Positions 1,025 to 16,042 of a stretch of 42,026 bases of DNA are shown here, piece after piece. This stretch comes from a virus: IMG/VR virus record IMGVR_UViG_3300037264_002532, positions 1-42,026 of that record, one strand, 5' to 3'. The notes under the pieces are model-generated. The model did no database searches, was not told where the DNA came from, and saw only the letters and a program-made list of their open reading frames with translations. Every line of letters starts with the position of its first letter. Positions within the stretch are counted from its first letter, which is position 1. The position numbers were made by a program, and so were the translations under genes.

Positions 1025-3391
1025 TTATATTAAAGGCTCCCCGTCTACGCTGAGCAAAATTTTATCAATGCTTAAAGAATACAAATCGCTATTTGTAATG
1101 TTCACCCGAAGCAATTCTCCTGATAATCCTCCACCTGTAAAATAGTCAGCATAATAATAAGGATATTCTGCCAAATTAATACTGAAAGTATCCGTTACTT
1201 CTTCAAATTTATTTGTTGTATTGTTAAAGTCTAACATAGTAAAAACATAAGTAAGAGTTCCCGAGCTTCCCGAGTGCAATGATGTAAATTTTCTGAGTGT
1301 TTTTCTGTATCCCGGAACGTCAAGATTTAACCATCCAGACCTCCACCTAAATGGAATAGATGTTTCAGAAGTGGAAGCTTCTTTAAAATAGGTTAATTTT
1401 ACTGTAAAATTTCCAACATTGTAAACTGTCGGTGAATGAGCGTAAGCGTCAGTAGTTAAGGAAATTCTATATTGCATCCAAACACCGGCAGTCAAGGCTG
1501 ATATATCGCTTCCTGTCGGGTCAGAATATTCCGCAGACCAGGCTGCTCCCGCCAATCCTGCTTCAGTTGATGCGCTTCTAATGGCAAAAGTAACATCATC
1601 TCCGCTTGACAACAGTCTCTCATTCCAGTATATCTTATCATACCCGCCAACAGCGGCCAAAGCGCCTGTATTCAAGGCTTGAGAGATATAACTTCCTGTC
1701 AATGAACCCCTGTCTATTGTTCCGGTTAAATCATTAATAATACCAGCCAAACTGTTTATTGTCTCTGTTCTGGCTATTTCTATCTCTGGATTATTGGCAT
1801 CTCCACCTACGGTTGTCGGAATATATCTTGCGTTAGTAAATGTTCCTGCAAAGTCAGAATGTTTATTATGCCTTATTTCGTTAATCTGTGATTTATGAGA
1901 ATAAACTTTTCCGTCCGTGGATGAACCGGAATAAAGAATATCCCAATCTGTGCCAGAGTTAAATGTAGTAAAACAATTTGCGCTAAAAGTATCTATCTCA
2001 TAAGCATTGGCCAGTAAATCAAATATAAGTATCCTATTATTGGTGGAAACAGATGTTTTTTTGGAAGGATAAGCAAGTAGATATTGGCTTTTATAATATT
2101 GCCCCCAGCAATAACCTAAATTAGACTCTAATATGTCATTAATTTCAGGAGTTACTACTTCAGAGATTAACTGCGAATTTTGCCCGTCAAATTTATATAT
2201 TCCGTCGCTTCCCAGATAAAATATCCCTAATGGAGTTTCCTGCGCTGAATACATTGCTTTACAACCGATATTAGAGAATGGGTCAGATACTTCCCAATCT
2301 GATGAAGGAGTTGCTCCGTCAGTAAAGAATTTCTGGATAGAGTTTTCTTTACCGATAGTCAACAATCCCTTTTGGTGTTTAATAAAAGTAATCTGGTCTC
2401 CGTCATCAGGACGGATATCCCAATAGTAATCTGTAGAGATGAAGTAATCTTTGTTACCATCATCACTGTAATAAAGCCGGCTGGGCGCTGGAGTGCTTGG
2501 GTCATTTGCCAAAAATAAACGGTTATAATGGATAAGGCAAAGTTTACCTTTAGGCGGAGTTGCTGAGAAAACCGTAGTGCCATTAACAGTTGGATAAGCA
2601 GCCCCTGAAGCTGTCGTATCATTATCTAATAATGTTGTAGTGGAATTGTCGGCTATTGTCCCGTTTGATAATAACTTCCAGACTCCTGCTTCTACTCTAT
2701 AAACTTTTCTTCCGGTTACAGATTCTCCACCATAAGTATCCGGGCCTATGGGTATCATTGAAAGAGAAACTTTCTTACTTGAAGGAGAAACAGAATTTGA
2801 GGCAACATTAAAAATTACTTCATAAGAAGTAGTATAAAAACTAACTTTGTAAGTGTAAGTTCCACTAGGGTTTCCTACTGTTGCTGAAACAGTAGCGAGG
2901 CAAGTCCCTAAGTAAGTAGCGGAAGCGGAAGTCCCGTCATATTTAACCGGTTGATTATAACCATCGGTTCCTATCGCAACATTATTCCAAGTAAGCCATT
3001 GCCAACGATAATTGCCAGTAGTTAAAGCAAGTATGGGAGTAAATACTCCTGTAGTATCAACTCCTGTTTCTATTTCGTCTCCATGAACAGCAATTAAAAC
3101 TTTTGTCCCATTATTAAGATAGAGGCGGTGCATACCGGTAATAGGTTCGGACGCATCAGCAGTGCCATAAGTTAATATCTGGTCTCTTTTAGAAATAGAA
3201 CCAAGTTTTATATTAAATCTTAAATTTTCGCAGATATCGCCTTGTTTACTTGGAAGGGAATAAGGAGAAATTTTTGTATTTAATCCTCCAGAAAAATCTG
3301 ATATGGAATATATTTTATTTTTGAAAGGATTATCTTGAGCGTATAATAATGCGGGAAGAAAGAATAAAAGAAATAATAGTTTTTTTATCAT
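1025..3391 (-). CDS. Putative tail nozzle / beta-propeller virion protein with signal peptide
   Basis: 788 residues, starting with a clear signal peptide (MIKKLLFLLFFLPALLYAQ). After it comes FSGGLNTKISPYSLPSKQGD followed by N-rich and KRDQ segments. This GGLN...P..L..G....N......G...KR pattern is typical of long beta-rich phage tail proteins placed after the head-tail adaptor, such as T7 gp12-like nozzles. The body is rich in short beta repeats with many G, W and Y residues. The gene overlaps the adaptor gene at 3388 by 4 bp. Size and order adaptor-nozzle-fibre support a podovirus tail hub. The family is inferred from pattern and position, so structural comparison could place it elsewhere among tail proteins. 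Confidence 0.6.
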   Translation of the reverse strand: MIKKLLFLLFFLPALLYAQDNPFKNKIYSISDFSGGLNTKISPYSLPSKQGDICENLRFNIKLGSISKRDQILTYGTADASEPITGMHRLYLNNGTKVLIAVHGDEIETGVDTTGVFTPILALTTGNYRWQWLTWNNVAIGTDGYNQPVKYDGTSASATYLGTCLATVSATVGNPSGTYTYKVSFYTTSYEVIFNVASNSVSPSSKKVSLSMIPIGPDTYGGESVTGRKVYRVEAGVWKLLSNGTIADNSTTTLLDNDTTASGAAYPTVNGTTVFSATPPKGKLCLIHYNRLFLANDPSTPAPSRLYYSDDGNKDYFISTDYYWDIRPDDGDQITFIKHQKGLLTIGKENSIQKFFTDGATPSSDWEVSDPFSNIGCKAMYSAQETPLGIFYLGSDGIYKFDGQNSQLISEVVTPEINDILESNLGYCWGQYYKSQYLLAYPSKKTSVSTNNRILIFDLLANAYEIDTFSANCFTTFNSGTDWDILYSGSSTDGKVYSHKSQINEIRHNKHSDFAGTFTNARYIPTTVGGDANNPEIEIARTETINSLAGIINDLTGTIDRGSLTGSYISQALNTGALAAVGGYDKIYWNERLLSSGDDVTFAIRSASTEAGLAGAAWSAEYSDPTGSDISALTAGVWMQYRISLTTDAYAHSPTVYNVGNFTVKLTYFKEASTSETSIPFRWRSGWLNLDVPGYRKTLRKFTSLHSGSSGTLTYVFTMLDFNNTTNKFEEVTDTFSINLAEYPYYYADYFTGGGLSGELLRVNITNSDLYSLSIDKILLSVDGEPLI

Positions 3392-4074
3392 CTCGAACTT
3401 GAAGGATTATGATATAAATTAGCCACTGGTTGCATACGAATAGTAGCGGATTTGCCACCGCTTAACTGAGTTTTCATCCACTGTGCATATGTAGAAAATT
3501 CTTTCTGAGCAATTTGTCCTTCTCCAGGTTTTCCTACTTTTGCTTTGGCTTTCCATTGCAAGAATTTTACTATCCCATAATGAAAAGGTTCTAAATATTG
3601 TAGCCCATTATACGGAGTAGAATCATCGCCTGTAAAATCATCACTGACTAAAACTACATAAACTCTTATTTCTAAATCTGCTGTTAATACAGGGTAATCA
3701 AAGTAAAGATATTTTCCTCGACGGTAATACTTCTCTGGAGTTCCTGCGCTTCTTTCTCGCCAAGTAGAATCTTCTGCGTCAAGCTCTGCAATAGTAGTTT
3801 TTATTAAAGGTTCATCATCAAAAGATACTCCACCAAAAGTTTCGTCTATATCGTAAAATTTAGGTATCTGCGAAGTTAAATCATATCTTGTGCTATAAAC
3901 AGAAGTAGTTGCAACGGAATTAAAAGCAACATCCCCAACTATGCAACGGGTAATAGCACAGATTTCCTTATCACCTTGTTTAGCCCAAACCTTTAAAAGA
4001 ACATTGCTAATTGCACGTTCTGTAATTTCTGAATTTTCAGCTCTAAGAATATCTAAAATTTCTGTTAATGTCAT
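3388..4074 (-). CDS. Head-tail adaptor (gp11/gp4-like)
   Basis: 228 residues. The N-terminal part is helical; the middle contains GTPEKYYRRGKYLYFDYPV and IRVYVVLVSDDF, the beta strand arrangement common in podovirus head-to-tail connector or tail-tube A proteins, where a GTP.YY...G..L...P block is typical. The C-terminal part is again helical (FLQWKAKAKVGKPGEGQIAQKEFSTY). It lies between capsid-region genes and the nozzle candidate, and overlaps the preceding gene by one base and the following gene by 4 bp. Called as the protein joining the portal to the tail, on sequence pattern and gene order. Confidence 0.6.
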   Translation of the reverse strand: MTLTEILDILRAENSEITERAISNVLLKVWAKQGDKEICAITRCIVGDVAFNSVATTSVYSTRYDLTSQIPKFYDIDETFGGVSFDDEPLIKTTIAELDAEDSTWRERSAGTPEKYYRRGKYLYFDYPVLTADLEIRVYVVLVSDDFTGDDSTPYNGLQYLEPFHYGIVKFLQWKAKAKVGKPGEGQIAQKEFSTYAQWMKTQLSGGKSATIRMQPVANLYHNPSSSR

Positions 4075-4418
4075 TAGGATTTCTCCATAGTTTTAATCGT
4101 GCAATAAACTATTCCTGTTAAATTTGCGTTAGTGCATTGAATTTTTACTTCATCTCCTGCTTCATTATCACAAGATCCTTGCGGCCTGAATACAAAATCC
4201 TGTTCACCGATTAAATCCGCGCTTTTAAGAACGTGGTCATAATTTGCTCCGTTCACGGAATCTCTGGTTATGGTTATTGTTTCTGTAATAGCTACAGAGG
4301 CATGTATAATTACTTCTGATAACTTAAACTTTCTTCCGATAGAAGTCGTATAGGAAAGCGACCCTATTGATAAATCCTGGCTTGTAGTTATATCTGGTTT
4401 TGTAAAATCTTTAGGCAT
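4074..4418 (-). CDS. Small beta-rich virion-region protein
   Basis: 114 residues, no family recognised. It has no signal peptide, unlike its neighbours, and is composed of alternating hydrophobic and T/S/N residues typical of a small beta sandwich. It sits between an exported protein and the head-tail adaptor in the head/tail operon, so a minor virion or decoration role is possible but only by position. Confidence 0.6.
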   Translation of the reverse strand: MPKDFTKPDITTSQDLSIGSLSYTTSIGRKFKLSEVIIHASVAITETITITRDSVNGANYDHVLKSADLIGEQDFVFRPQGSCDNEAGDEVKIQCTNANLTGIVYCTIKTMEKS

Positions 4419-4420
4419 AT

Positions 4421-4819
4421 TTACCTCGTATATTCTATCGTTACAACTGATTTTGCGCTTTGCACTATCGCTAATCCATTTGATAAATGTTTAGGATAAG
4501 GGAATACTCTGTCATTGGAACTATTAGCTACTGACTCACATTCGCCTTTCATATTGGCATTGGTTATTTGCGCGGCGGCAGTAGCGTCATATACAGCCAC
4601 TCCTGAAGCTGTTCCGCTTTCTGAGAAAGGAGCTACCGCGATACTTAATATTTTATGTATTCCAGGGATAACCGTTGATGTTGATACATAAGTGGTTAAT
4701 GAAGTAACGCTTGAATTAACGCTGGTATAAGTATCGCAAAGTGTCGTTACACTCGCCTGAGCAAAAGTAATAATTGAAAATAAAACCCCTAAAACTAAAA
4801 TACTGATTTTTTTAAACAT
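4421..4819 (-). CDS. Exported virion-region protein, paralogue A
   Basis: 132 residues from ATG 4819, chosen because AAGGAGG lies 9 nt upstream. Residues 1-21 look like a Sec signal peptide (MFKKISILVLGVLFSIITFA). The mature part is Thr/Ser/Val-rich and shares its layout with the protein at 5776-6186: VIPG....IL, then an A-rich DxxAAA block, then GE, then YP.....G..V.Q, and a final V.IEY strand. The two flank the Wzy-like membrane gene. Function unknown; it may be a periplasmic protein or a decoration protein. Confidence 0.65.
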   Translation of the reverse strand: MFKKISILVLGVLFSIITFAQASVTTLCDTYTSVNSSVTSLTTYVSTSTVIPGIHKILSIAVAPFSESGTASGVAVYDATAAAQITNANMKGECESVANSSNDRVFPYPKHLSNGLAIVQSAKSVVTIEYTR

Positions 4820-5798
4820 ACCCAAATTCCTCCTTTTTGTAACTGCTTACAATAAATAATCCCGTTAAAAATATATACGTAACCGCCTTATCAACAAAAA
4901 ACATTATGGATTGCACTGACATTATCAAAATCATAGTTATAGCTAATATCAGATGAATGTTTATTTTTATCCTTATCAATGTTAAAAAAGTAAAAATCAG
5001 ACAAAATATTGAAGCTATGATTCCTAATTGCGCGCCTATATTTAAAAAATCGTTATAACGCCAAAGCCATTTCTGCGCTTTTTCAAGGAAAATCATATTA
5101 TTATAATCAAGTGTATGGTTAAATCCGCTTCCTACGAATGGATGTTGAATAATCTGCTTAACTAATCCTTTCATTACCGGTATCTTATAAGCAAATCTTC
5201 CTAATACCGCCGTATAATTTAATCCAAAATAAACCAACCCAGCCCAGAACATCAACATAGAAATCCAGTATCTTTTTTTAATTAAGAAAAAAATAAGCAA
5301 TGCCAAAAATAAAGCCACAAACGGAGTAAAGTGCGAATCTTTTTTAAATTCATAAACCCACGGCATAATCAAAACAGGAAAAAGAAAATATAAAAACTTT
5401 ATGTTAGTGGTATATTTTATTAAGATGTATAAAAACAATATTCCGACGAGAATATAAATAAATCCTTCTGACATAAGATACATATTCTTATATCTAAAAA
5501 CTATGGACTCTTTTGATAATATAAAACTGTGAATAAAGACTCCGATTAATGACCATATAGCAATTAACCCAAGCCAGATATTTTGATAATTTCTCTTAGG
5601 CTTGAATATAAAAGTTAAACATAAAAGTAATAATGTATAGAATACGAAAAATATTTCTTTGATGTAAGTTTCCTGAATGAAATTTATAACTAACATCAAA
5701 CTGATTAGAAAATCGAATAAAGAGGGAGCTGGCTGAAAAAAATCCAGCCAGCTTTCCCTGATTCCTTTCATAAGATTACAAAGGAATTGTGTTTTCAT
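4812..5798 (-). CDS. Wzy_C / O-antigen-ligase-like membrane protein
   Basis: 328 residues with about nine or ten hydrophobic helices. Toward the C-terminus lies a long loop with KGLVKQIIQHPFVGSGFNHT and RYNDFLNIGAQLGIIASIFC. The pattern hP..G.GFN ... N.fLn....lGii is the hallmark of the O-antigen ligase/polymerase (Wzy_C, WaaL) superfamily, which joins or polymerises surface glycans at the outer face of the inner membrane. The family assignment is by motif; the substrate is unknown. The gene sits inside the virion operon and overlaps both neighbours (8 and 23 bp). A second in-frame ATG at 5771 would avoid the overlap with the upstream gene. Possible role: changing the host surface polysaccharide during infection. 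Confidence 0.6.
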   Translation of the reverse strand: MKTQFLCNLMKGIRESWLDFFQPAPSLFDFLISLMLVINFIQETYIKEIFFVFYTLLLLCLTFIFKPKRNYQNIWLGLIAIWSLIGVFIHSFILSKESIVFRYKNMYLMSEGFIYILVGILFLYILIKYTTNIKFLYFLFPVLIMPWVYEFKKDSHFTPFVALFLALLIFFLIKKRYWISMLMFWAGLVYFGLNYTAVLGRFAYKIPVMKGLVKQIIQHPFVGSGFNHTLDYNNMIFLEKAQKWLWRYNDFLNIGAQLGIIASIFCLIFTFLTLIRIKINIHLILAITMILIMSVQSIMFFVDKAVTYIFLTGLFIVSSYKKEEFGYV

Positions 5799-6186
5799 AA
5801 TAAATATTTACTACTGTCCCTGTTCCTTGCCCGACAACTATGCCCGCAGTAACATCAATCGGACGAGGATACCACTTTTCGATAGAAGTAGTATTGGCGC
5901 AGACAAGTTCTCCAAATTGATTGCTTGTGCTAAGAGAAGCAGCCGCGGCAACATCGTGAATAGATGCGGCTGTTGAACCAGCGGAAGTTACAGTCGGGCC
6001 CATATCCCAACCTAATATCCTTGATTTACCAGGGACAATGGTTGTTATAGGAACAAGCGTTGCTCCATTACCAGTTGTTTTAACAATGGTATAAACTTTC
6101 ATACTCGATGTATCACTTGCTAAGACAGGCGAGAATATAAACAATGCCAATCCTAACACTAAAAACAAACTTAACAATTTCTTCAT
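5776..6186 (-). CDS. Exported virion-region protein, paralogue B
   Basis: 136 residues, ATG preceded by AGGAGGAAAGTCA. The N-terminal 23 residues are a clear signal peptide ending VLASD. The mature domain matches the protein at 4421-4819 block by block: TTIVPGKSRIL, an A-rich IHDVAAAA block, FGELVC, YPRPIDVTAGIVVGQG and VVNIYYEN. It directly follows the major capsid gene, separated by a short hairpin. An abundant secreted or capsid-associated role is possible; no enzyme motif is seen. Confidence 0.65.
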   Translation of the reverse strand: MKKLLSLFLVLGLALFIFSPVLASDTSSMKVYTIVKTTGNGATLVPITTIVPGKSRILGWDMGPTVTSAGSTAASIHDVAAAASLSTSNQFGELVCANTTSIEKWYPRPIDVTAGIVVGQGTGTVVNIYYENTIPL

Positions 6187-6243: not shown

Positions 6244-7164
6244 TCATAATCCTGTGCTTGCAAATCCACATCTCCAATCACTAATCGCAACTAAGAAGTG
6301 CTCCCAACCATCGAAGTAGTATCTTTGTTTAAGATTGTCAATCCAAGAAGCGAATTGAGGTTTCTGCGCCCAAACGAGTTTTAACATTTTTAAACTGGGA
6401 TAAATTATATACCAGGCTGTATCAGATCCACCCATTTTTGCAGAGAGATACTTTGCCTCAACTGGAATATATTTACCAGCATAGAGGTTAATATCTCTAT
6501 TGTCAGTTCCTGGCCTGTCATTTGCTCTTTCGTTTAATACTCTGCCAACTGCACCAGCTAAAGCAGGAGCATAGAGAAGCAAAGGTTTTTCAGTCAAGGT
6601 AATCGGATCGCCGTCCATATCGAAATGGTTATCGGCCATCTGCTTTTCAGCGGCCTCTAATCCATCGTGAGAAAACGGCCCGGACAATAAATTGTCATAG
6701 GTAACTCCTGTTTCCTCTGGATTTTTAGGATGGCTATTGTAGAAAGTGTAATAACCATCAGCTCCAGCAACACTAAATCCTTGATATAACTTAGTAGCAG
6801 TTGCTTTTAATACTGCGGTTTTTCCACCATTACCTAATGCTTCGGCATTGACTATTTTTTTCTTTAATGCCGCAATTTCCATCTGTTCGTTTACTTCGAA
6901 CGAAACATAGAAATATTTGCGGTATTTCTGTTGGGTATTGGTTTTTTCATACCCGATGATGAAGTGGTCTGATCCGGTATCGCTATCTTCATCAACTGTT
7001 TCCCATGCGCCTAACCCAGACATATTATTCGTAATATAATCTTTAGTCGGGTCTTCAATTTCATCAAACGCCACTAAATGAGCTTTGCCCGGTGCGTTAA
7101 ATTTCAGCATCGTAAACTCATCATAAATGGGTGTAAATAAATCGAGCATTTCCGCTTTTGTCAT
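6244..7164 (-). CDS. Major capsid protein (HK97 fold, Mu gpT-like type)
   Basis: 306 residues. The central part has the features of capsid proteins of this type: YTFYNSHPKNPEETGVTYDN, then LLSGPFSHDGLEAAEKQMAD, then a P..LLYAPAL block, NLYAGKYIPVEA, and a WYIIYPSLKML strand near the C-terminus. Length is at the low end for HK97-fold shells. It lies downstream of scaffold and decoration protein genes, the usual order. Its ribosome site is 27 nt upstream with a hairpin in between (see 7170-7196). Confident call. Confidence 0.85.
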   Translation of the reverse strand: MTKAEMLDLFTPIYDEFTMLKFNAPGKAHLVAFDEIEDPTKDYITNNMSGLGAWETVDEDSDTGSDHFIIGYEKTNTQQKYRKYFYVSFEVNEQMEIAALKKKIVNAEALGNGGKTAVLKATATKLYQGFSVAGADGYYTFYNSHPKNPEETGVTYDNLLSGPFSHDGLEAAEKQMADNHFDMDGDPITLTEKPLLLYAPALAGAVGRVLNERANDRPGTDNRDINLYAGKYIPVEAKYLSAKMGGSDTAWYIIYPSLKMLKLVWAQKPQFASWIDNLKQRYYFDGWEHFLVAISDWRCGFASTGL

Positions 7165-7169
7165 CGTTC

Positions 7170-7196
7170 AAAAAATAGGCTTATCGCCTATCCTCC
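7170..7196 (-). promoter_or_regulatory. Hairpin between Shine-Dalgarno and capsid start codon
   Basis: Minus strand order: GGAGG (7196-7192), then ATAGGC-GATAA-GCCTAT stem-loop (7191-7175), then TTTTTT and GAACG, then ATG at 7164. No other ribosome site lies close to the ATG. Folding of the hairpin would bring GGAGG within about 10-12 nt of ATG, as known for T4 gene 38. The stem followed by six T residues could alternatively be a terminator limiting read-through into the capsid gene. Confidence 0.5.
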
Positions 7197-7221
7197 ATTT
7201 TAGTTACAAATTGTTACTTTT

Positions 7222-7683
7222 TTAAGCTTGTGTTGCTATTACTTCAAAATGTCCAATGGCATAACCATAGGTATTTGCCAAAATTGCCTCCGCGGAGATG
7301 TCAATATCATCAATTCTGAAAACTATACCTTCGGTCTCAACATCAGAAATGTCAATATCGTCATTATTCTCAAGATTAACGCATGAACCTATCGCATCTC
7401 TTGTGATCACTGCATTAGCCGCGACTGGAACGGAATATTGAGTTTTGGTGTCAAGAGGATAATACTCAACGTATTTTGTTGAGCTATCTCCTACAACATC
7501 AGCGGCCGCTACTCCCATAAATAAAGCTGTAAAAAGAACTGCCGCATTAGTTAAATAACCGCTTCCGTTATCTTCTATGGCATCGCCTTTGACAATTGTT
7601 ACCGTAGCCGCAAGATTCCTTCTTCTTGCCGGCGGTTCGTTTACGGGTATAAACCCGTTTGCCTGGTATCTTGCTAATTTCAT
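7222..7683 (-). CDS. Capsid decoration/head protein
   Basis: 153 residues, ATG preceded by AAGGAGGGTTATCA. The sequence has TIVKGDAIEDNGSGYLTNA, LFMGVAAADVVG, KYVEYYPLD, then a long acidic beta segment ending with GYAIGHFEV. This pattern, a K-G-D strand, GVAAADV and a Y-P strand, is typical of small phage head decoration proteins encoded just before the capsid gene in the direction of transcription. It probably binds the outside of the shell. Confidence 0.6.
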   Translation of the reverse strand: MKLARYQANGFIPVNEPPARRRNLAATVTIVKGDAIEDNGSGYLTNAAVLFTALFMGVAAADVVGDSSTKYVEYYPLDTKTQYSVPVAANAVITRDAIGSCVNLENNDDIDISDVETEGIVFRIDDIDISAEAILANTYGYAIGHFEVIATQA

Positions 7684-7699
7684 TGATAACCCTCCTTGA

Positions 7700-7918
7700 T
7701 TAACGGCTTGTAATAGTCGTTTGTTCTAATTTCCCTCTTGAACCTGCGTTTTCTTGGCTAAGATTTCTTAAATTTAGCCTTACTTCCGCAGGCACATCAT
7801 TAACATTTCTTTCCCCATGCCCATATCCACACTCAGAGCATACTTTCGGCCTTTTTTTCACAAAAGGAATTTTCCCTTTGCATCTGCCACAAGTATAAAA
7901 TGAATATGGAGTAGGCAT
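7700..7918 (-). CDS. Small zinc-ribbon protein
   Basis: 72 residues with two CxxC pairs, CGRCKGKIPF and CSECGYGHGE, about 18 residues apart, forming a rubredoxin-like zinc ribbon. The remaining C-terminal half is charged and probably flexible. It overlaps the stop of the scaffold gene by TAATG and precedes the decoration protein. Role in head assembly unknown. Confidence 0.7.
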   Translation of the reverse strand: MPTPYSFYTCGRCKGKIPFVKKRPKVCSECGYGHGERNVNDVPAEVRLNLRNLSQENAGSRGKLEQTTITSR

Positions 7919-9105
7919 TATTTCTTTTTCTCTCTAAACTTTCTTAAGGCTGAATCAATCATTGACTGAGTAGCTTTACTTGTTCTCATAGTTTCTATGA
8001 TAGTATTTTCAGTTTCAGTCAATGTTTCTTTGCCTATTGGTTTTCTCGGCAAGGTAGAAACAACGCCTTCATCGGAAGAAGTTAATCTGGCAATTTCAGC
8101 GCTTAAGTTTTCAATCTGCTCCTGCATTTTATCAAGAGTAGATTTATCTTCATTGTTAGTTTCTTCCTTAAGCCTTTTTTCCATTTCTTCTGCCGCTTTT
8201 TCGGGAGCGTCAAACTCGAATTTCCAGTCAGGATTCTCTTCGGCTATCCGCATAATCGCATCGTATTTTTTATTTTCTGTTCTTAAAATACGTTCGATTT
8301 CCTCTTCGGATTTACCTTGTGTCTTTAATTCAGCCTTACGGTTTTTAACATCCAATTCAGGATGTTTTCCATAAACCTTGACTAAAGACTGCGCTTGGTT
8401 TTCGTAGAGTTTTCTTGATATGCCTTCACGTTGTTTATTGCTTAAGTTCTGGCGTTTATCAATTTCTCTGCGAAATTCCCTGCGTTGAATCCAGGCGATA
8501 GCGGCTTTCTGGTCTTCTAATAACCAGTCATCAAGTTCGCTATCTTCCATCTCCCTGCGCTTTTCTCTCTGTAAAGAAGCATCCTCTTCAAGGTATTTTT
8601 TATTTTTTTCGTGTTCTTCTTTTTCCACTAAAGCGCCTATATCTTCGCGCTTCTCTGTCTTTTCCTTACGTAAAGTTTCAAGTTCTAAACGCGTTTTTTC
8701 AGCTTCTTTCGATGATTTATCCTTAGTTTCTTTAAGTTGATTGGACAATTCATCAATGCGTTTCTGGGTTTCTTCTTTTATCCGCTTTATTTTTTCTTCA
8801 GAAGAAAGCTTCCCCTCTTCCTCTTTACGTTTGGCTTCCAGAAGTTCTACCTTGCGTTTTTTCTCAGCCTCGTCTTTAATCTCCTCGTCTTTTTTAACGA
8901 GTAACTCAGCGTCTTTCTTGGCTTGAGCTTCTGCCGCAATGCGCGTTTCTTCGGCTTTCTTCTCATCCTCCGCCCTTTTGGTTTCTAACGCTTTTCTCTC
9001 TTCTTCGGGCATAGACGCTTCTTTAGACTCCTGGATAGTGGATTTCTCTTTTTCCAAAATACCTTCGAGTTCTTTTTTCAATTCTTCCTTCTTTAATTCA
9101 GCCAT
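7918..9105 (-). CDS. Putative capsid scaffold protein, coiled coil
   Basis: 395 residues from ATG 9105, chosen because AAGGAGGATTCCA lies directly upstream; a longer frame to 9141 lacks a ribosome site. Residues about 1-200 are a nearly uninterrupted charged coiled coil rich in E, K and R, followed by W-containing helices (DWLLEDQKAAIAWIQRREFR) and a less ordered C-terminus ending in basic RKFREKKK. High helicity, charge and position immediately before decoration and capsid genes fit a scaffolding protein that drives procapsid assembly. No protease motif was seen. Called by composition and order. Confidence 0.6.
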   Translation of the reverse strand: MAELKKEELKKELEGILEKEKSTIQESKEASMPEEERKALETKRAEDEKKAEETRIAAEAQAKKDAELLVKKDEEIKDEAEKKRKVELLEAKRKEEEGKLSSEEKIKRIKEETQKRIDELSNQLKETKDKSSKEAEKTRLELETLRKEKTEKREDIGALVEKEEHEKNKKYLEEDASLQREKRREMEDSELDDWLLEDQKAAIAWIQRREFRREIDKRQNLSNKQREGISRKLYENQAQSLVKVYGKHPELDVKNRKAELKTQGKSEEEIERILRTENKKYDAIMRIAEENPDWKFEFDAPEKAAEEMEKRLKEETNNEDKSTLDKMQEQIENLSAEIARLTSSDEGVVSTLPRKPIGKETLTETENTIIETMRTSKATQSMIDSALRKFREKKK

Positions 9106-9167
9106 TGGAATCCTCCTTATTTTTACTACCAGCGCTATCATAGGTCAGCACAGTAACCTCTTTTCCA

Positions 9168-9190
9168 TAGCTAAGTTTAGAGTAGCTAAG
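9168..9190 (-). repeat. Short direct repeat upstream of scaffold gene
   Basis: The 8-mer CTTAGCTA occurs twice on the minus strand (9190-9183 and 9175-9168), 15 bp apart. It lies between the terminator at 9199-9241 and the scaffold start. No consensus -35 is visible; a TATGAT -10-like hexamer follows at about 9140. It may mark a phage-specific promoter or binding site. Confidence 0.3.
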
Positions 9191-9198
9191 CACTCTAT

Positions 9199-9241
9199 TA
9201 AAAAAGGCGCAATCAATAGATTTATCTATCAATTACGCCTT
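9199..9241 (-). terminator. Intrinsic terminator between portal and capsid operons
   Basis: On the minus strand AAGGCGTAATTGATAGAT pairs with ATCTATTGATTGCGCC, about 16 bp with a few mismatches and a short loop, followed by a run of T. It lies 27 bp after the GIY-YIG stop codon and before the scaffold gene. Confidence 0.75.
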
Positions 9242-9267
9242 CGATCAATCGTTGGTGCGTTGTTAAA

Positions 9268-9912
9268 TTATTTTAAACTTAAACTTTCCTTACTATTTCT
9301 TTCTAATCTTTCCTTTTGTCGTCGCTTATCCTGTGCTATTCTTATATTTATGGCACCTTCTGGTGTTTTAGGTTTACACATATTTAATCTTGCAATTAAT
9401 GTTCTGGGCTTACTCATCTTAATTCTTGTTTCTAAAGAACGTTTTATACCAGTGAGTGTTTTACTTATTTTAATTTTAAATTCTAAAGAACGTTTTATAC
9501 CTCTTAATTTATTTCCTATCTTTATTCTTTGTTCCAATGGTTCTCTCCTACCAATCAAAGGACTTATCTTACCTTTCATTGCTTGACTTATTTTATTTCT
9601 TGAAACCAAAGTATGTTTTCCACGAAATCCTACTCCACCGTCAGTAATATTATATAAATTTACCCTTCCTAACAATTCTCTATAATCTTTAATAAATTTT
9701 CTTTCTAAAAAATCTAACTGTTCTTTATTAGAAGCATAAACTATAAATTCACGTTTAAATGCTTCTTTGCCTTCTTTCTTAAGAGCTCTTTTAATTATAA
9801 GACCACTACCAAAATAAGAGAGACTAAACTTACCTTTTCTTTGACCTATATAAATTTTGCCATTTACTAAATTAGTGGTCTTGTAAATATATCCATAATC
9901 ATCTTTTAACAT
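9268..9912 (-). CDS. GIY-YIG homing endonuclease with NUMOD3 repeats
   Basis: 214 residues. The N-terminal catalytic domain shows GYIYKTTN and KIYIGQRKG (the GIY and YIG strands), a conserved FGSG, and FLERKFIKDYR supplying the catalytic Glu. C-terminal to this are four copies of an NUMOD3-like DNA-binding repeat (RNKISQAMKGK, QRIKIGNKLRG, FKIKISKTLTG, TRIKMSK). Such proteins cut target DNA and spread by homing. It lies in the head operon between a 47-residue gene and the scaffold. Its last codons (KESLSLK) resemble the C-terminus of that upstream gene (KESFSLNK), suggesting the insertion captured or regenerated a gene end. Confidence 0.85.
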   Translation of the reverse strand: MLKDDYGYIYKTTNLVNGKIYIGQRKGKFSLSYFGSGLIIKRALKKEGKEAFKREFIVYASNKEQLDFLERKFIKDYRELLGRVNLYNITDGGVGFRGKHTLVSRNKISQAMKGKISPLIGRREPLEQRIKIGNKLRGIKRSLEFKIKISKTLTGIKRSLETRIKMSKPRTLIARLNMCKPKTPEGAINIRIAQDKRRQKERLERNSKESLSLK

Positions 9913-9913
9913 T

Positions 9914-10057
9914 TTATTTATTCAAAGAAAAACTTTCCTTTACTTCAACTTTTTCAGATAGGTTGCCTTCGTGTAAGTTAATCCGCAGCTGGACAGATTT
10001 TTTATTATCCAAAAATTCTTTGATTAACTTAAAAAGTTTCTCTATCTTTGGATTCAT
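9914..10057 (-). CDS. Small protein, 47 residues, ending in KESFSLNK
   Basis: ATG at 10057 overlaps the stop of the upstream 85-residue gene as ATGA, which supports real translation. The protein is charged and helical at the start (MNPKIEKLFKLIKEFL) and then has a beta stretch KSVQLRINLHEG. It stops one base before the GIY-YIG gene. No family recognised; it may be shortened at the C-terminus by the endonuclease insertion. Confidence 0.6.
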   Translation of the reverse strand: MNPKIEKLFKLIKEFLDNKKSVQLRINLHEGNLSEKVEVKESFSLNK

Positions 10058-10311
10058 TCAATCTTTCTCGGCCTACCTCTTGGTTTTTCAATCTTTGGAG
10101 TTTCCGTTTTAACTTCTGCCTTAGCTTCTTTTTTTGGTTCATCAAGTGTCTTGGCAAACTCTTTAATCTTTAACTCTTTTTCTTTGCGCGCTATTTCCTT
10201 GGCCACAAATTCAGCCTTACCAAGCTTAATATTGCTTAGGTCATCGGGCATAGGATTTTCTACAACTACGCCCCTATCAGCTGCTTTTTTTGTTGCTTTC
10301 ATTTCGGCCAT
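10054..10311 (-). CDS. Small basic protein with AT-hook-like tail
   Basis: 85 residues; AAAGGATGG precedes the ATG. The middle is a charged helix (FVAKEIARKEKELKIKEFAK); the C-terminus is Pro/Lys/Glu-rich and ends in RGRPRKIE, matching the core of an AT-hook (GRP flanked by basic residues), which binds the minor groove of AT-rich DNA. It lies between portal and scaffold genes. Role unknown. Confidence 0.6.
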   Translation of the reverse strand: MAEMKATKKAADRGVVVENPMPDDLSNIKLGKAEFVAKEIARKEKELKIKEFAKTLDEPKKEAKAEVKTETPKIEKPRGRPRKIE

Positions 10312-10369
10312 CTGTTACCATCCTTTCTGTTACCAATGGAATGTTCATAGGCACATTCCAAGAAAGCCC

Positions 10370-10594
10370 TTATTTCTTTAATTCTTCTAATTTTTTTTGA
10401 GTCAACATCAGAATCCTATCTGTATCTTTTAAAGCTCGTAATGCGCCATAAGCGTTTATTAAATCTTGTGCCGCGACAAATTTATTTACTTCAGCCTGGA
10501 GTGATAATTTATGCTCTTCTAAAATATTATAGAAAGTTTTAGACATTAAAATAGATTGAAGTTCGCCTATTTCTGAACCTTTATTGTTTGCCAT
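10370..10594 (-). CDS. Small helical protein after portal gene
   Basis: 74 residues, start overlapping the portal stop codon (TAATG). It is predicted almost entirely helical (FYNILEEHKLSLQAEVNKFV ... LKDTDRILMLTQKKLEELKK). Small helical proteins at this position occur in many phages next to portal and scaffold, but no family is recognised. Confidence 0.65.
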   Translation of the reverse strand: MANNKGSEIGELQSILMSKTFYNILEEHKLSLQAEVNKFVAAQDLINAYGALRALKDTDRILMLTQKKLEELKK

Positions 10595-12804
10595 TAAACT
10601 ATTCCTCCAGGCATAGCTTCTGGCATTGCCCCTGGAAGTGCCGTTTCTTGCGCTCCTGGGGCTCCTGGAGGGGCGTTCTGCGGCTGTATAGGCATAGTGC
10701 CTTGTCTTGGCTGTCTCCCGCCTTGAGTGATAGCCTGAGAAGCCATCTGATTAGCCATTTGGTCTACTTGCGCTTGTTTTAAGAATTGCATTGCATTAAC
10801 CATTGTTTTGAAATAATGGGAATCAAAGTTAGGACGATATTCTTCATCAAGCAAATGATATTTTTCTTCTTTCTGTTTAGTATGCCCTTCTAAATGTTGT
10901 AAAGCTAATTGAGTTTCGCCTTCTGGCGGGTCAAAGTCTTTACCATTCATAAAATCATACCATTCGTTATTAAGTTGAGATTCATCAAATTTAGCCTTTG
11001 GTTTTTCACCTAAATACCTTACGACTTCATTATCAGAAAGATTAAGCATCTCTTTAAGGGTATCCGCGCATAAATTCCAGTTACCGGAAGGATTAACCTG
11101 CGGTTGAAGCCAAATCATTTGTTGTCCTGCGCCGAATGCCCACATTATCAGTTGTTTTTTATAAGCTTTAGAGCCGGCAACTACGTCAGGAGACATCTGC
11201 ACTGCGGTATCTCCGCGTAAGCTATCAATGGACAGATTTGGGAATATCTTCTTTCCATCTTCACCGATTATTCTTTCAGTTAAACCTTTTGACGGATAAT
11301 CCTGGTATAGCTCAAACCACATCCCGATTGCTTCACACAAATCATTTTGTATTCTTGATGACCATAATCCAAATCTTGTTTCAGAGTTTTTATCTATAAG
11401 TAAATCTTGTCCTAAAGTTTTTGACTGATTCCCTCTGCTCGAAAAATAACTTGCCGCGCCTGTAAGCCTTTCTAAAACCTCAAAGAGGATTCTTATGTCA
11501 CTTTCGGCCCAAGCCATAGAGCGCTGAATATTAGGGATATTTATTTTTGAGGGGTCATCAGTAGGATACATTATCAAAGGTTCTAACTCAAATTTAGCCT
11601 GGGTATATCCCTCACTCGGAGTATAAAAACCAAACGGACAATTAGTTACATATTGAAAATCCGACTTTTGGTTAAACACACAATTAAAAGCATTAACTAC
11701 AGGAGCAATAATCTGCATTAAAGAAATGCCTCTAATGTTCCCTGGTTCATTACAAAGTCCTCTCCCGACAAAAGGTATTTTACCGGAACGGTTAATCTTT
11801 CTTAAAGGCTTCCCGCTTAAAAATTCACCGTTCTCTACATCAACTATGAATCTGAATTTTTCTGTCCTGCCGCCTTTGGTATGCATCCCATACCATTCAT
11901 AGAGAGTTATAGGCAAGCGGCGCACATCTAAATCAGTCATATTGCCGGATGTTATTCCAAGCGCGGTAAGTTTTTCTTCTCCGAGTGTTCTTTCTTTTTC
12001 CGAATAAACGCGGTTATAAAGCTTTTCTTTATACTTTTTTTCGTCCTCTGGAATAAATACTTTACGTTTGATATAATCCAAAACTAATTCTCCGTCTAAG
12101 TGCAAACATTGAATAAAGAAAGAAAGCTCTTGTATATTCTTTCCATATTCAGGCATAAGAATATCATCAATATCCGCGATATTCTCAATAATACCTTTTT
12201 CAAACCTTACTTTCTCGGTCTTAATATCATATTTATAAGTATCCCCTTTTTTATTCTTTACGGGGATACGTTTATCAACCCATTCTTCCCATACTTTACG
12301 ATATATTTTCAAAAATGAAGTGCCTACTACTATGCGGTTATGAATAAAAGCGTCAACTTCAGGGAAAACATTTGCCTCTTGTTTACCCATTCCCCATTTC
12401 GTAAACTTTTCCTGATTGTTTCGATTATCTATATCATTAGTCCTTGTCGCTATAAAATTAATTGAGTCAGGATTCCAGCAAGTAGCTAATAAAGTCGCTT
12501 GATAACTATCTCCAACAGCTCTGGCAAGGCCTAAATTCCTATCCGACATCCAAGCCTTTTTAGTAAGCCCTTCAAGCGTGGAAGGCTTAACACAATGATA
12601 ATGTTTTAAATCAAGCTCTTTTTGAGAGACATAATCAGCCTGGATACTTCCTCCATAATCAACATCATCAGATACTATTTTAACGATAGCCTTGCGTTCT
12701 TCTGAGGTAAACGCGTCTGATTCCGGGGCAATTTTAATCTCTGTTTTTCTTTCAGTAGTTTTCTGGCCTGGATTTTCTTTCGGTTCTAATTTTGGTTTAG
12801 GCAT
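10594..12804 (-). CDS. Portal protein
   Basis: 736 residues. Recognisable portal features include an N-terminal helical crown region, EVDAFIHNRIVVGTSFLKIY, a D-I-DD-I-LMPEYG block, and later LFEVLERLTGAASYFSSR followed by a helical stem region. The C-terminal 60 residues are Q/P/G-rich and low complexity. Length is like that of large podovirus portals. It forms the dodecameric ring through which DNA is packaged and to which the tail adaptor attaches. It lies downstream of the terminase large subunit with three small genes between. Confidence 0.85.
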   Translation of the reverse strand: MPKPKLEPKENPGQKTTERKTEIKIAPESDAFTSEERKAIVKIVSDDVDYGGSIQADYVSQKELDLKHYHCVKPSTLEGLTKKAWMSDRNLGLARAVGDSYQATLLATCWNPDSINFIATRTNDIDNRNNQEKFTKWGMGKQEANVFPEVDAFIHNRIVVGTSFLKIYRKVWEEWVDKRIPVKNKKGDTYKYDIKTEKVRFEKGIIENIADIDDILMPEYGKNIQELSFFIQCLHLDGELVLDYIKRKVFIPEDEKKYKEKLYNRVYSEKERTLGEEKLTALGITSGNMTDLDVRRLPITLYEWYGMHTKGGRTEKFRFIVDVENGEFLSGKPLRKINRSGKIPFVGRGLCNEPGNIRGISLMQIIAPVVNAFNCVFNQKSDFQYVTNCPFGFYTPSEGYTQAKFELEPLIMYPTDDPSKINIPNIQRSMAWAESDIRILFEVLERLTGAASYFSSRGNQSKTLGQDLLIDKNSETRFGLWSSRIQNDLCEAIGMWFELYQDYPSKGLTERIIGEDGKKIFPNLSIDSLRGDTAVQMSPDVVAGSKAYKKQLIMWAFGAGQQMIWLQPQVNPSGNWNLCADTLKEMLNLSDNEVVRYLGEKPKAKFDESQLNNEWYDFMNGKDFDPPEGETQLALQHLEGHTKQKEEKYHLLDEEYRPNFDSHYFKTMVNAMQFLKQAQVDQMANQMASQAITQGGRQPRQGTMPIQPQNAPPGAPGAQETALPGAMPEAMPGGIV

Positions 12805-12835
12805 TGATTACCCCATACATCTTTTAATAACCTTA

Positions 12836-12988
12836 TCATCGTAATCCTTCCTTTTTTACTTTTTCACCGGCCGCAAATAATCTTTTCTCTATCTCAGCCC
12901 TTTTAGGGTCATTGCTAACCTTTACACCGGATAAACTTTCTCCTGCTTTTTCTATTTTTTTTAACTTGGACTTAAGGCTTGTTTTCAT
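12836..12988 (-). CDS. Small basic protein, 50 residues
   Basis: ATG at 12988 overlaps the TGA of the preceding gene as ATGA. The product is highly charged and helical (KSKLKKIEKAGESLSGVKVS ... EIEKRLFAAGEKVKKEGLR). No family recognised. Its end lies 31 bp before the portal start; the coupling suggests it is translated. Confidence 0.6.
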   Translation of the reverse strand: MKTSLKSKLKKIEKAGESLSGVKVSNDPKRAEIEKRLFAAGEKVKKEGLR

Positions 12989-13230
12989 AGTGAATCAAAT
13001 AACCTTATATTTTCTTGTCGAGTTTCTTCGTATATTTCAGGATAGCCTGTTTTTAAAATATCCATACAGGTATCGCATAATTTAATAAGATAAGGTATTT
13101 TTTTATACTCATAACATCTGATACATTTATCAGCTCCAGAAAAAGGATGCTTGTGAATTTCGTGAGCCTCTTTAAGTAATCTTACCCATTCATCAAGATA
13201 TTCTTTTGATTTTTCTAAAGTTTTTGTCAT
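12985..13230 (-). CDS. Small zinc-binding protein
   Basis: 81 residues with CIRC and CDTC pairs about 18 residues apart, a likely zinc finger, and His residues just before (HEIHKHPFSGADKCIRCYEY). It overlaps both neighbours by ATGA. Located between terminase and portal; function unknown. Confidence 0.65.
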   Translation of the reverse strand: MTKTLEKSKEYLDEWVRLLKEAHEIHKHPFSGADKCIRCYEYKKIPYLIKLCDTCMDILKTGYPEIYEETRQENIRLFDSL

Positions 13231-13583
13231 CGCTTAAACCTCGCAAAATTCATAATTCCGTTTTTTTGCGGAGTAATTAAATTATTTACCGCTTCTTTCC
13301 GCATTTCTGAAGCTATATCCATACTTATTCTTGCTTTACGTAAAAGATGGGCGATTTCACTTTCAGCTTGATTGAGTTCGCTCCGTTTGCAATTCCCGAC
13401 CAGAATGGATATTCCAAGTTGTGATTTAGGGTTACGGATTGCGGCGCAGATTAACTCATTAATCTCGATGAATGAATCGGGGTCGGAATTATATCGTGCC
13501 AATCTTTCTTCTTTAAGCTGCTCGGGAGTTTTTTGCAATTCACCTTCTGGATTTTTTTCTAACTTTCCATTATCTCCTGACAT
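13227..13583 (-). CDS. Conserved-type small protein between TerL and portal
   Basis: 118 residues, ATG about 15 bp after an AAAGGAT-like ribosome site. The N-terminus is polar, the rest helical, with FIEINELICAAIRNPKSQLG and QAESEIAHLLRKARISMDIA. No catalytic motif seen. Position suggests packaging or head assembly but this is not supported by a recognised domain. Confidence 0.6.
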   Translation of the reverse strand: MSGDNGKLEKNPEGELQKTPEQLKEERLARYNSDPDSFIEINELICAAIRNPKSQLGISILVGNCKRSELNQAESEIAHLLRKARISMDIASEMRKEAVNNLITPQKNGIMNFARFKR

Positions 13584-13611
13584 TTTTATCCTTTCTATTG
13601 TGATTTTTTCA

Positions 13612-15126
13612 TCAATACACCTTTATTCTTTCCGGTATAAAATCTTTTAATCCTTCAAAATATTTCGGGTTGCTCATAAAATAGTAACGTAAAATATCAC
13701 AATAATCCTTGTGTTTTTCCTGCACTCCGACTTTGTCCTTGCTATCTCCATCAGCGGTGAAAATATCTTTTCTGGAATATCTGCTTAAATGCTTAATCGT
13801 ATTCGGGCAGTTATCAGTAACGAAAAACTTAGGTTGCATTACTATTTCATTATCTTTCATTTCATAATGTAACATTTCCCTGACTTTAAGATGCCCGGCT
13901 TCGAGGCTGTCTAAACCGTCTTTAAATTCTAACCCGCGCTTTTTAAGTTCTTCTTTTGGAGTAGTATGCGCTTTATCATCAACCCTCTCGGCTATTCTTA
14001 TTGTCTTATTGCCAAAGTTAGGGTCAATGATACGCTTAGTTATTCGCGCGCCATAAATATCAAAAAGAGCGTCTTCTTTTTGGCGGATAATATTTACATA
14101 CTCGTCGTAGGTTTTATCGTCGGAAATCATCTCATTAAAATCACGATTAGGATATTCGTCTATACAATAAGAAGTCTGGGTTTTATGCAAGATTATCCAT
14201 TGCATAGCCCAGGGTTTACGGTCATGCGGGTCGAGTATGTGATAAATCTGCACATTATCAAGCGGCGCCTGCTCAAAAGGAATAACATGGATACGCTTAT
14301 TGAAAGCAGGATAAATTTTACCGGAGAGATTAACAGGAATACCGTAGATACGGGATTTAATCTCATCCCGTGTCATAAATTTAATTTCTTGTCTCAACCT
14401 GTCTTGGTCAATATATGGATTATCGGTATTCCATAACATATAAAACTTAATATCATTTTTCTCTGCGATTACAGGCAAATCCTCGTTAAGAATATCGCTA
14501 TGCCTGTTTTGTATCACATCACAATCCTCGAATATATCGGCTATCAAATCAGTCACGCCTTTTGTCGAGGTCATAGAGATAATCATTTCCCCGTCGCGGT
14601 CAATAAGGCGCATACGTTGCTCTTTATAAATATCATAAGGCGGCTCCTCATCATTAATAATTATGTCACAATCATCCTGTGCAAAAGATTGAACACCCTG
14701 GTCATAAGAACGAAACATAATCAATGAACCATTTTTAAATTTTAACTTGCGATTAGTAAAGCCGTTAATATCATCATAATTCCCATAAGCAATCTGATTT
14801 TTAGGCACTAAATCCCAGACCTTACGTTGCATAATATTCACACTGTCGGAGAAAGTTTCAGAACATAACCAGATACGCTGCTTAGGTTTTTCTAAACCTT
14901 TTTTTATAGCATATTCCGCAACCTCAATAGTTTTTCCTCCGCGGTTACCGCCAAAAGCACAACGAGTTTTGGCAGAGTCGTTATGAAAAGCTAATTGTTG
15001 CGGTAAATGTGTATAAAAAGCTAAAGGATTAACCCTGCGCCTGTATTCAATCTCGGCGCAAAGAAGCCTTAACTCGGCCTCGTCTTCTTTGCTTAGATTA
15101 ACTTTTTGATTTTCCAATAATTGCAT
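13612..15126 (-). CDS. terL: Terminase large subunit
   Basis: 504 residues. ATPase domain: Walker A GGNRGGKT at residues 59-66, a C-motif region SMTSTKG, and Walker B DIIINDEE at 154-161. Nuclease domain: HILDPHDRKPWAM (first catalytic Asp in a RNase H-like fold), RIIDPNFGNK, and DYCDILRYYF near the C-terminus. This is the motor that cleaves concatemers and pumps DNA into the procapsid with TerS and portal. The start overlaps terS by 29 bp. Confident. Confidence 0.92.
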   Translation of the reverse strand: MQLLENQKVNLSKEDEAELRLLCAEIEYRRRVNPLAFYTHLPQQLAFHNDSAKTRCAFGGNRGGKTIEVAEYAIKKGLEKPKQRIWLCSETFSDSVNIMQRKVWDLVPKNQIAYGNYDDINGFTNRKLKFKNGSLIMFRSYDQGVQSFAQDDCDIIINDEEPPYDIYKEQRMRLIDRDGEMIISMTSTKGVTDLIADIFEDCDVIQNRHSDILNEDLPVIAEKNDIKFYMLWNTDNPYIDQDRLRQEIKFMTRDEIKSRIYGIPVNLSGKIYPAFNKRIHVIPFEQAPLDNVQIYHILDPHDRKPWAMQWIILHKTQTSYCIDEYPNRDFNEMISDDKTYDEYVNIIRQKEDALFDIYGARITKRIIDPNFGNKTIRIAERVDDKAHTTPKEELKKRGLEFKDGLDSLEAGHLKVREMLHYEMKDNEIVMQPKFFVTDNCPNTIKHLSRYSRKDIFTADGDSKDKVGVQEKHKDYCDILRYYFMSNPKYFEGLKDFIPERIKVY

Positions 15127-15532
15127 TGGCTTTGGTTAATAATTCCGTTACTGATAATGTCGCAAATTTTTCCACTGTTGAATCCGAAAGAGAATGTTCA
15201 ATATCGGTTTTATCTCTCCAACCAAATCTATTTTTCATATTGGCATACCAATTTCCTGTCTGGAAATTTTGGTCTGATAAACTAATCCGCGATTGTTTTT
15301 CCCACCAAGCTTGACATAATAACTTTCCTATTTGGAGAGTTTCGGCAAACTCTTTCTCTCTATCTTTCAACGCATACCAAGTATCATAATTAAATTTGCC
15401 GCCTGCCAAACATAATTGCGCCCTTATCTCAACATCAGATAATCCCTCGGCGGACATATCCAAAATAATATCTCTCCAATTTTTTGGTAAGCAATCTTCA
15501 AGTTTTTTCGGCGGCCTTCCCGGTTTTGCCAT
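15098..15532 (-). CDS. terS: Terminase small subunit
   Basis: 144 residues. An N-terminal basic GRPPKKLE segment is followed by a helix-turn-helix region (IILDMSAEGLSDVEIRAQLC) of the type that binds the packaging site, a central oligomerisation helix and WYANMKNRFGWRDKT, a motif common in TerS proteins. It lies directly upstream of terL. Recognises viral DNA for packaging; call by family pattern and order. Confidence 0.8.
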   Translation of the reverse strand: MAKPGRPPKKLEDCLPKNWRDIILDMSAEGLSDVEIRAQLCLAGGKFNYDTWYALKDREKEFAETLQIGKLLCQAWWEKQSRISLSDQNFQTGNWYANMKNRFGWRDKTDIEHSLSDSTVEKFATLSVTELLTKANAIIGKSKS

Positions 15533-15533
15533 T

Positions 15534-15737
15534 TTAATATTTATATTTACTATTCTTTTTTGTTATTGATAATTTACAAATCAAACTGCAATTCTTAAAA
15601 TTAGCTAATGCCGTCAATACCTTTGCCAACTGTGTCGCGTCTGAGGTAAGTATAATCTCACTCTGCCCGTCACCATCGACTTTAATAACCTGCTTATGAG
15701 GGTTAAACTGGCAAAGAAATTCTATTTCCTCAGCCAT
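15534..15737 (-). CDS. Small protein upstream of terS
   Basis: 67 residues, start overlapping the GroES-like gene stop by one base (15737). It has alternating strands (QVIKVDGDGQSEIILTS) and a helix (TQLAKVLTALANF). No family recognised. The position between co-chaperonin and terminase suggests late expression. Confidence 0.55.
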   Translation of the reverse strand: MAEEIEFLCQFNPHKQVIKVDGDGQSEIILTSDATQLAKVLTALANFKNCSLICKLSITKKNSKYKY

Positions 15738-16042
15738 TACGAAACCATATCATTAATCCGCGCCAAAACCCAACGGTCTTTCAGCTTCAAATATTCCTCG
15801 CCTCGAAAATTAAACTTAATCCCCTCGTGCCGCTGGAATATTATTTTATCACCAATTTGCAATTTATATTTATAATCCTTACCTATTGACTCCACAACAC
15901 CAAAAATAAATCCATGATATAATTGAAATTCTCCCCTGCCGGAATTTTTTCCAAATCTCGAAGTATCGGGAATGATAATATTATTAATTTTGTCCTGATA
16001 TTGCGGTTTTACGATTACAGTATTTTTGAGGGCTTGTAACAT
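15737..16042 (-). CDS. GroES-like co-chaperonin
   Basis: 101 residues, close to the length of GroES. The family layout is clear: LKNTVIVKPQ (first strand), NNIIIPDTSRFG (equivalent of the hydrophobic mobile-loop tripeptide region, as in the IMLPEKS of other Cpn10 proteins), GFIFGVVESIG, LQIGDKIIFQRHEGIKF, then YLKLKDRWVLARI at the end. A longer loop (about residues 27-43, with GKNSGRGEFQLYHG) differs from host GroES. It would cap the host GroEL, as T4 gp31 does for capsid folding. First gene of the head operon, 63 bp after the promoter -10; its ribosome site AAAGGAGG is 16-17 nt from ATG. Confidence 0.8.
   Translation of the reverse strand: MLQALKNTVIVKPQYQDKINNIIIPDTSRFGKNSGRGEFQLYHGFIFGVVESIGKDYKYKLQIGDKIIFQRHEGIKFNFRGEEYLKLKDRWVLARINDMVS

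Follow-up and report, generated by a model that had tools for sequence, protein, structure and literature searches.

Gene Organization Downstream of the Capsid Gene

The window analyzed in this study was the whole 42,026-base virus record IMGVR_UViG_3300037264_002532, from an uncultivated tailed phage whose late genes were carried on the minus strand, with terminase-like genes at 13612-15532. On that strand, the gene for the major capsid protein (MCP; 6244..7164), so assigned because its homologs matched Phage_capsid_4/Mu gpT above the cut-off, was followed after 57 nt by the gene for a 136-aa exported protein (SP1; 5776..6186). The next gene (wzy; 4812..5798) encoded a 328-aa polytopic membrane protein predicted to be WaaL/Wzy_C-like, and overlapped by 23 nt with the SP1 gene and by 8 nt with the gene for SP2, an exported paralog of SP1 that could begin at an ATG (4421..4819; 132 aa) or at a TTG (4421..4825; 134 aa). 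Behind SP2 lay the gene for a conserved 114-aa protein without a signal peptide (4074..4418), which formed the end of this slot in 25 loci. A previous sequence-only reading had described an O-antigen-ligase-like gene framed by two exported paralogs, with the three genes overlapping or nearly touching directly after the capsid gene and among the late genes, and this layout was confirmed.

Each of the SP1 and SP2 genes possessed an AGGAGG ribosome site, which in SP1 was upstream of the ATG; given the AGGAGG upstream of ATG 4819, SP2 most likely starts there rather than at TTG 4825. No ribosome site was evident for wzy itself, whose overlaps with its neighbors are arranged as in translational coupling. 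A homing endonuclease gene (phrog_314, 2e-31) was also found near the capsid genes of the window at 9268-9912, and HNH-like endonuclease genes, judged by eye, were present within the corresponding slot of two related loci (L006:10864-11616 and L057:5029-5583).

Relationship of the Membrane Protein to WaaL

The membrane protein of the window had 7-8 hydrophobic segments and carried the sequence HPFVGSG...YNDFLNIGAQLGIIA, a degenerate WaaL motif. It matched no Pfam (including Wzy_C, PF04932) or PHROG family up to E=5, and direct single-protein scans of viral contigs with either this protein or SP1 identified no relative, so that capsid anchoring was needed for finding relatives. These were collected, on metagenomic contigs, via two anchors, the capsid protein and the 114-aa protein behind the trio. 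All polytopic ORFs of at least 280 aa in the anchored loci followed the capsid gene, mostly 450-600 nt past its stop, and fell into a long (~390-420 aa) and a short (~323-352 aa) subtype, the latter including the window protein.

Wzy_C was matched by all 14 long-type members scanned (best 1.5e-13) and by 16 of 16 further siblings, that is, by 30 of 30 siblings overall. When the long-subtype profile was compared with the PDB, the sole match was the WaaL ligase 7TPG/7TPJ (3e-7 and 4e-8). The short-subtype profile had no sequence match in the PDB; its alignment with the long-subtype profile by hhalign gave a probability of 95 and an E of 2.5e-8. In VIA comparisons, a predicted model of the window protein (pLDDT only 67) was closest to 7TPG, with a Z of 8.9 across 247 aa; FtsW/RodA, which share the GT-C_B fold, came next. 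Given that VIA Z values under 13 are not decisive for helical proteins, the weight of the proposed WaaL homology lies on the chain of profiles. Foldseek alone was too weak for this protein (best probability 0.44). Judged by this profile chain, the window membrane protein is homologous to WaaL/Wzy via its phage siblings, in agreement with the O-antigen-ligase-like identity assigned in the earlier reading. The PglL_A motif (PF15864) was absent from the window protein and reached a best E of 0.11, in 2 of 14 siblings; since this is not significant, membership in the PglL group is not claimed.

Active-Site Residues and Selection

E. coli WaaL requires R215, R288, and H338, which are conserved in PglL (PMC3643930). 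In a MAFFT alignment of 37 phage homologs, which is reliable near the motifs and less so elsewhere, Arg was found at the R288 position in 35 and His at the H338 position in 32. The window protein and its near relative L003 had Lys at the former (K205 of the window, minus strand, 5184..5186) and Tyr at the latter position (Y248, minus strand, 5055..5057), and they were the only homologs in which both residues were replaced; the remaining exceptions at the His position were Gln in L029 and L034 and Asp in L061. All 37 had an acidic residue at the second position past the His. In the long subtype, the Arg-to-His spacing was 50 (R259/H309 in L033), equal to that of E. coli WaaL. Thus, most other family members look catalytically intact as judged from their motifs, and the ligase activity of the window copy is doubtful given K205/Y248 in place of Arg/His, a point that the sequence-only reading had missed when it correctly recognized the ligase family.

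The window wzy is nonetheless under purifying selection and shows no decay. Between the window and L003, with synonymous sites near saturation, wzy had a pN/pS of 0.26; the capsid gene had 0.19 and the genes of the exported proteins 0.32-0.44. With K205/Y248 at the catalytic positions, the window enzyme may have a changed chemistry or serve as a non-catalytic partner of both exported proteins. Along the latter line, the WaaL fold could be catalytically dead in the lineage of the window and act in the membrane as a docking or assembly partner of the exported paralogs, or as a dominant-negative inhibitor of the host ligase. The Lys and Tyr of the window and L003, the Gln of L029 and L034, the Asp of L061 and the persisting selection would all fit such a role, which we consider distinctly unlikely, as the invariant acidic residue after the motif and the apparently retained fold speak against it.

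Exported Proteins

SP1 and SP2 were paralogs (BLASTP 6e-13, 28% over 88 aa), and each had a predicted signal peptide of the classical Sec type: MKKLLSLFLVLGLALFIFSPVLA followed by SD in SP1 (minus strand, 6118..6186) and MFKKISILVLGVLFSIITFAQA followed by SV in SP2. Signal peptides were called with a home-made rule on the n-, h-, and c-regions, not with SignalP. Among control proteins, the rule gave no positives for portals, terminases, and scaffolds, 1/29 for the family encoded directly before the capsid gene and 1/26 for the 114-aa proteins; because it also flags some polytopic proteins, only non-polytopic calls were counted.

The predicted model of SP1 was a beta-sandwich (pLDDT 86.6). Its top VIA match was the cement protein of Helicobacter phage KHP40 (7dou, Z 8.8), with which a Bacillus Ena pilus subunit was tied, and nucleoplasmins (within about 1 Z) and the HFTV1 turret protein were close behind. 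The modeled fold points to a small virion-type beta protein without proving a role as cement. SP1 and SP2 of the window had no significant match to Pfam or PHROG, including their cement and decoration families, and a viral structure library gave numerous small beta proteins from uncultured phages, none with a function. Firmer links to the virion than the SP1 fold come from sequence matches of siblings: the exported partner in L102 matched Phage_cement_2 (PF09956) above the cut-off, and SP2 of L052 was an exported paralog of the non-exported 114-aa protein of the virion module. The exported partner in L097 had a weak match to cement or head-decoration proteins. One common profile for the window SP1/SP2 and the 114-aa protein was unsupported (hhalign probability 0.1).

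Signal peptides were also observed on other late genes of the window, all on the minus strand. A 788-aa tail nozzle-like protein (1025-3391) and a Gly-rich tail fiber (166-1014) each had a clear Sec signal peptide. The former was related to the "phage stabilization protein" of phage ctSlx955 (pairwise E 3e-6); nozzle homologs with signal peptides were encoded at L078:8080-10509, L088:8064-10484, and L080:3299-4582, and that of ctSlx955 was without one. The opposite end of the late block contained another three signal-peptide genes (32928-33863, 33863-34567, and 34853-35941), one of them with a Laminin_G_3 lectin domain (2.2e-8), close to a lysozyme gene (40985-41485).

Joint Exchange of Enzyme and Exported Proteins

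The slot had a fixed order of capsid, SP1, Wzy, (SP2), and 114-aa protein, and the types of its members were correlated. SP1 belonged to cluster 2 in 8/8 short-type loci, as did SP2 in all 6 of these in which SP2 was found (L004 was cut and L020 had none). Long-type loci had a cluster-0 SP1 and, where classified, an SP2 of cluster 3 or 5, and four loci that lacked Wzy (L009, L011, L017, and L028) kept a cluster-0 SP1 and a cluster-5 SP2. In the capsid tree, the long-type loci L051, L006, and L005 were nested in a supported short-type clade, so that the subtypes are not clades. The enzyme and the exported proteins were thus exchanged jointly, with the flanking capsid gene kept, and this co-switching of Wzy and SP types could be explained by physical linkage alone. 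Directly behind the SP2 gene of L054, a GT2-like gene and a sulfotransferase gene (PF13469, 1.8e-8) were found (L054:4218-5679).

Just within the reading frame of the window wzy, a strong hairpin was predicted (minus strand, 5727..5753), and the start of this frame folded far more stably than its shuffles (z -5.3). Hairpins of differing sequence were found at the same place in L003, L020, and L018; that of L057 was weaker, and none was present in L029 and L034. Strong hairpins also occurred at the wzy starts of L099-L102. At z<-3 relative to their own shuffles were 10 of 35 wzy starts vs. 3 of 110 control genes, and all 3 were SP genes of the same cassette. Such a hairpin could result in much less enzyme being made than exported protein.

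Recurrence beside Other Capsid Families

The sequence-only reading had called for a search for the three-gene set in other phages, and the set recurred in slot loci, with pairs of an exported protein and a Wzy_C protein also present beside further capsid families. Capsid-anchored and capsid-blind scans covered 2.9 million viral contigs (IMG/VR). The short-Wzy scan of all of them returned only contigs already known via the capsid. The long-Wzy scan yielded numerous contigs beyond those already found, and each of the 16 Wzy proteins that were tested from this set matched Wzy_C. Where assignable, the capsid types of the new loci were Phage_capsid_2, phrog_9953, phrog_1328/SU10_MCP, GP7, and a protease-capsid fusion, which together with the Phage_capsid_4/gpT type of the window make six families in all. 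The pairing of an exported protein with a Wzy_C protein is therefore repeated next to capsid genes of at least six kinds, and in nearly all loci wzy lay within the capsid gene block.

Outside the capsid clade of the window, the gene directly upstream of wzy encoded a signal peptide in 11/11 testable loci vs. 7/76 for other nearby genes (Fisher 1.1e-9, with loci of one capsid family not being independent of each other). L096 had no neighbor with a signal peptide, its upstream gene being cut by the contig end and left unscored, and in L103 the signal-peptide gene was downstream of wzy. These counts bear on the proposal that wzy is a selfish or host-derived passenger without a functional link to its neighbors, whose export would simply reflect how many late proteins are exported in this phage group. 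The signal peptides common on fiber and nozzle genes in the phage group of the window, and the retention of exported proteins by relatives without Wzy, are what such a passenger would predict. Other capsid groups, however, rarely have signal peptides except directly upstream of wzy, and the short-type Wzy was confined to the capsid slot among the 2.9 million viral contigs; we thus regard a passenger as very unlikely.

No MCP, Wzy, or 114-aa relative was found among 50,697 phage records, and a genome collection scanned with the MCP and Wzy profiles gave no match. Podovirus ctSlx955 (MW202743.1, L063) carries, after its capsid gene (7108-15939), three glycosyltransferase-like genes, a gene annotated as hyaluronan synthase and two methyltransferase genes. 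It was considered as a parallel and rejected, as its proteins missed the MCP, SP, and 114-aa profiles; among the genes tested, none was related to the capsid, SP, or 114-aa proteins of the window. On another contig, L095, two Wzy-like proteins were encoded (L095:144 and L095:4971-6107), the second of which was in a fiber-like region, beside an exported protein with a LamG lectin domain.

Proposed Glycosylation of Exported Virion Proteins

PglL genes mostly adjoin the gene of an exported acceptor, as does pilO in P. aeruginosa (PMC3643930). Given the observed homology, rule-based export signals, synteny, recurrence beside several capsid types and joint exchange of enzyme and SP subtypes, we tentatively propose, at nearly an even chance, that the trio is a cassette in which a virion-decoration-type protein is exported and a ligase of the WaaL/PglL (GT-C_B) fold glycosylates such decoration proteins. 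The decoration proteins would reach the periplasm via Sec, and the phage ligase would transfer a host undecaprenyl-linked glycan to them, as PglL/TfpO do on pilins. The glycosylated proteins would then join the virions, probably at or after lysis, which is a guess, and provide them with a host-like sugar coat.

The sequence-only reading had instead envisaged a surface-changing module that might block superinfection or change lipopolysaccharide at the end of infection. In such a module, the Wzy-like protein would alter the O antigen or compete with the host WaaL/Wzy late in infection, and the exported proteins would contribute to preventing re-adsorption of progeny or superinfection. Prophage-encoded Wzy proteins do change host surface polysaccharide (PMC9241936), as in the case of Wzy-beta of phage D3 (PMC4815439), and the exported proteins would occupy the right compartment. 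The known cases, however, are prophage genes, and in VarioGold the gene is separate from the late genes and oriented against them (PMC9658991). Here wzy belongs to the capsid block and is linked with exported proteins of the virion type, so that a purpose in changing lipopolysaccharide or preventing superinfection fits less well than the identification of the protein itself, and we consider it unlikely. Given the resemblance of the cassette to PglL/TfpO-pilin pairs, glycosylation of exported virion-decoration proteins is preferred.

Several observations argue against the preferred glycosylation model: the exported proteins are kept without Wzy in four loci, PglL_A does not reach significance, the catalytic Arg and His are replaced in the window enzyme, the capsid is built in the cytoplasm and the partners are exported, SP1 matches the Ena pilus subunit as well as it does a cement protein, and co-switching may reflect mere linkage. 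The sulfotransferase and GT2-like genes in the cassette of L054 argue for it.

Tailed phages are taken to assemble entirely in the cytoplasm. Judging from the recurrence beside several capsid genes, some phages may send parts of their virions out of the cytoplasm and coat them with host sugars. It is doubtful, and would be a broader claim, that several unrelated tailed-phage lineages export decoration (perhaps also tail) proteins, have them O-glycosylated in the periplasm by a phage WaaL/PglL-type ligase that draws on host lipid-linked glycan, and complete their virions, sugar-coated in a host-like manner, outside the cytoplasm. In the literature searched, the coverage of which was incomplete, no phage structural protein was described as being exported for glycosylation. 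If the model is true, parts of some virions would transit the periplasm and bear host-type sugars, with consequences for how phages are recognized and cleared and for their host range; new self-contained enzyme-acceptor pairs would also become available for glycoengineering. The model would also explain, in a testable way, why signal peptides are so frequent on the structural genes of phages that have not been cultivated.

Comparison with Known Systems

Like WaaL (Wzy_C, PF04932; CmWaaL 7TPG), the window protein has a predicted homologous membrane fold and the motif region HPxxGxG ... [HY]N[DE]X8G, and its long siblings share the Arg-to-His spacing of the E. coli enzyme. In contrast to WaaL, it is shorter, has Lys/Tyr for Arg/His and no Pfam match of its own, and is encoded in a phage capsid block rather than an LPS locus. 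The seroconverting prophage Wzy proteins (D3, VarioGold, and A. baumannii prophages) are likewise phage-encoded Wzy/Wzy_C membrane proteins, but they act on host surface polysaccharide; unlike these prophage morons, the window wzy overlaps its neighbors, shares the strand of the capsid gene, is flanked by virion genes and has exported partners.

The capsid cement proteins resemble the exported partners, with KHP40 7dou as the tied top structural match of SP1 and the L102 partner as a sequence member of Phage_cement_2 (PF09956). To our knowledge, known phage cement proteins have no signal peptide. The pairs of PglL or PilO (TfpO) with an adjacent pilin or ComP also consist of a Wzy_C-family enzyme adjoining an exported candidate acceptor; the phage genes differ from them in being without significant PglL_A and in that their candidate acceptors are predicted beta-sandwich, virion-type proteins, not pilins. 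The virion glycosylation of mycobacteriophages shares with the proposed model its end product, sugar on virion proteins. In mycobacteriophages, phage glycosyltransferases act in the cytoplasm, whereas a periplasm-facing ligase of lipid-linked glycan and exported acceptors are proposed here.
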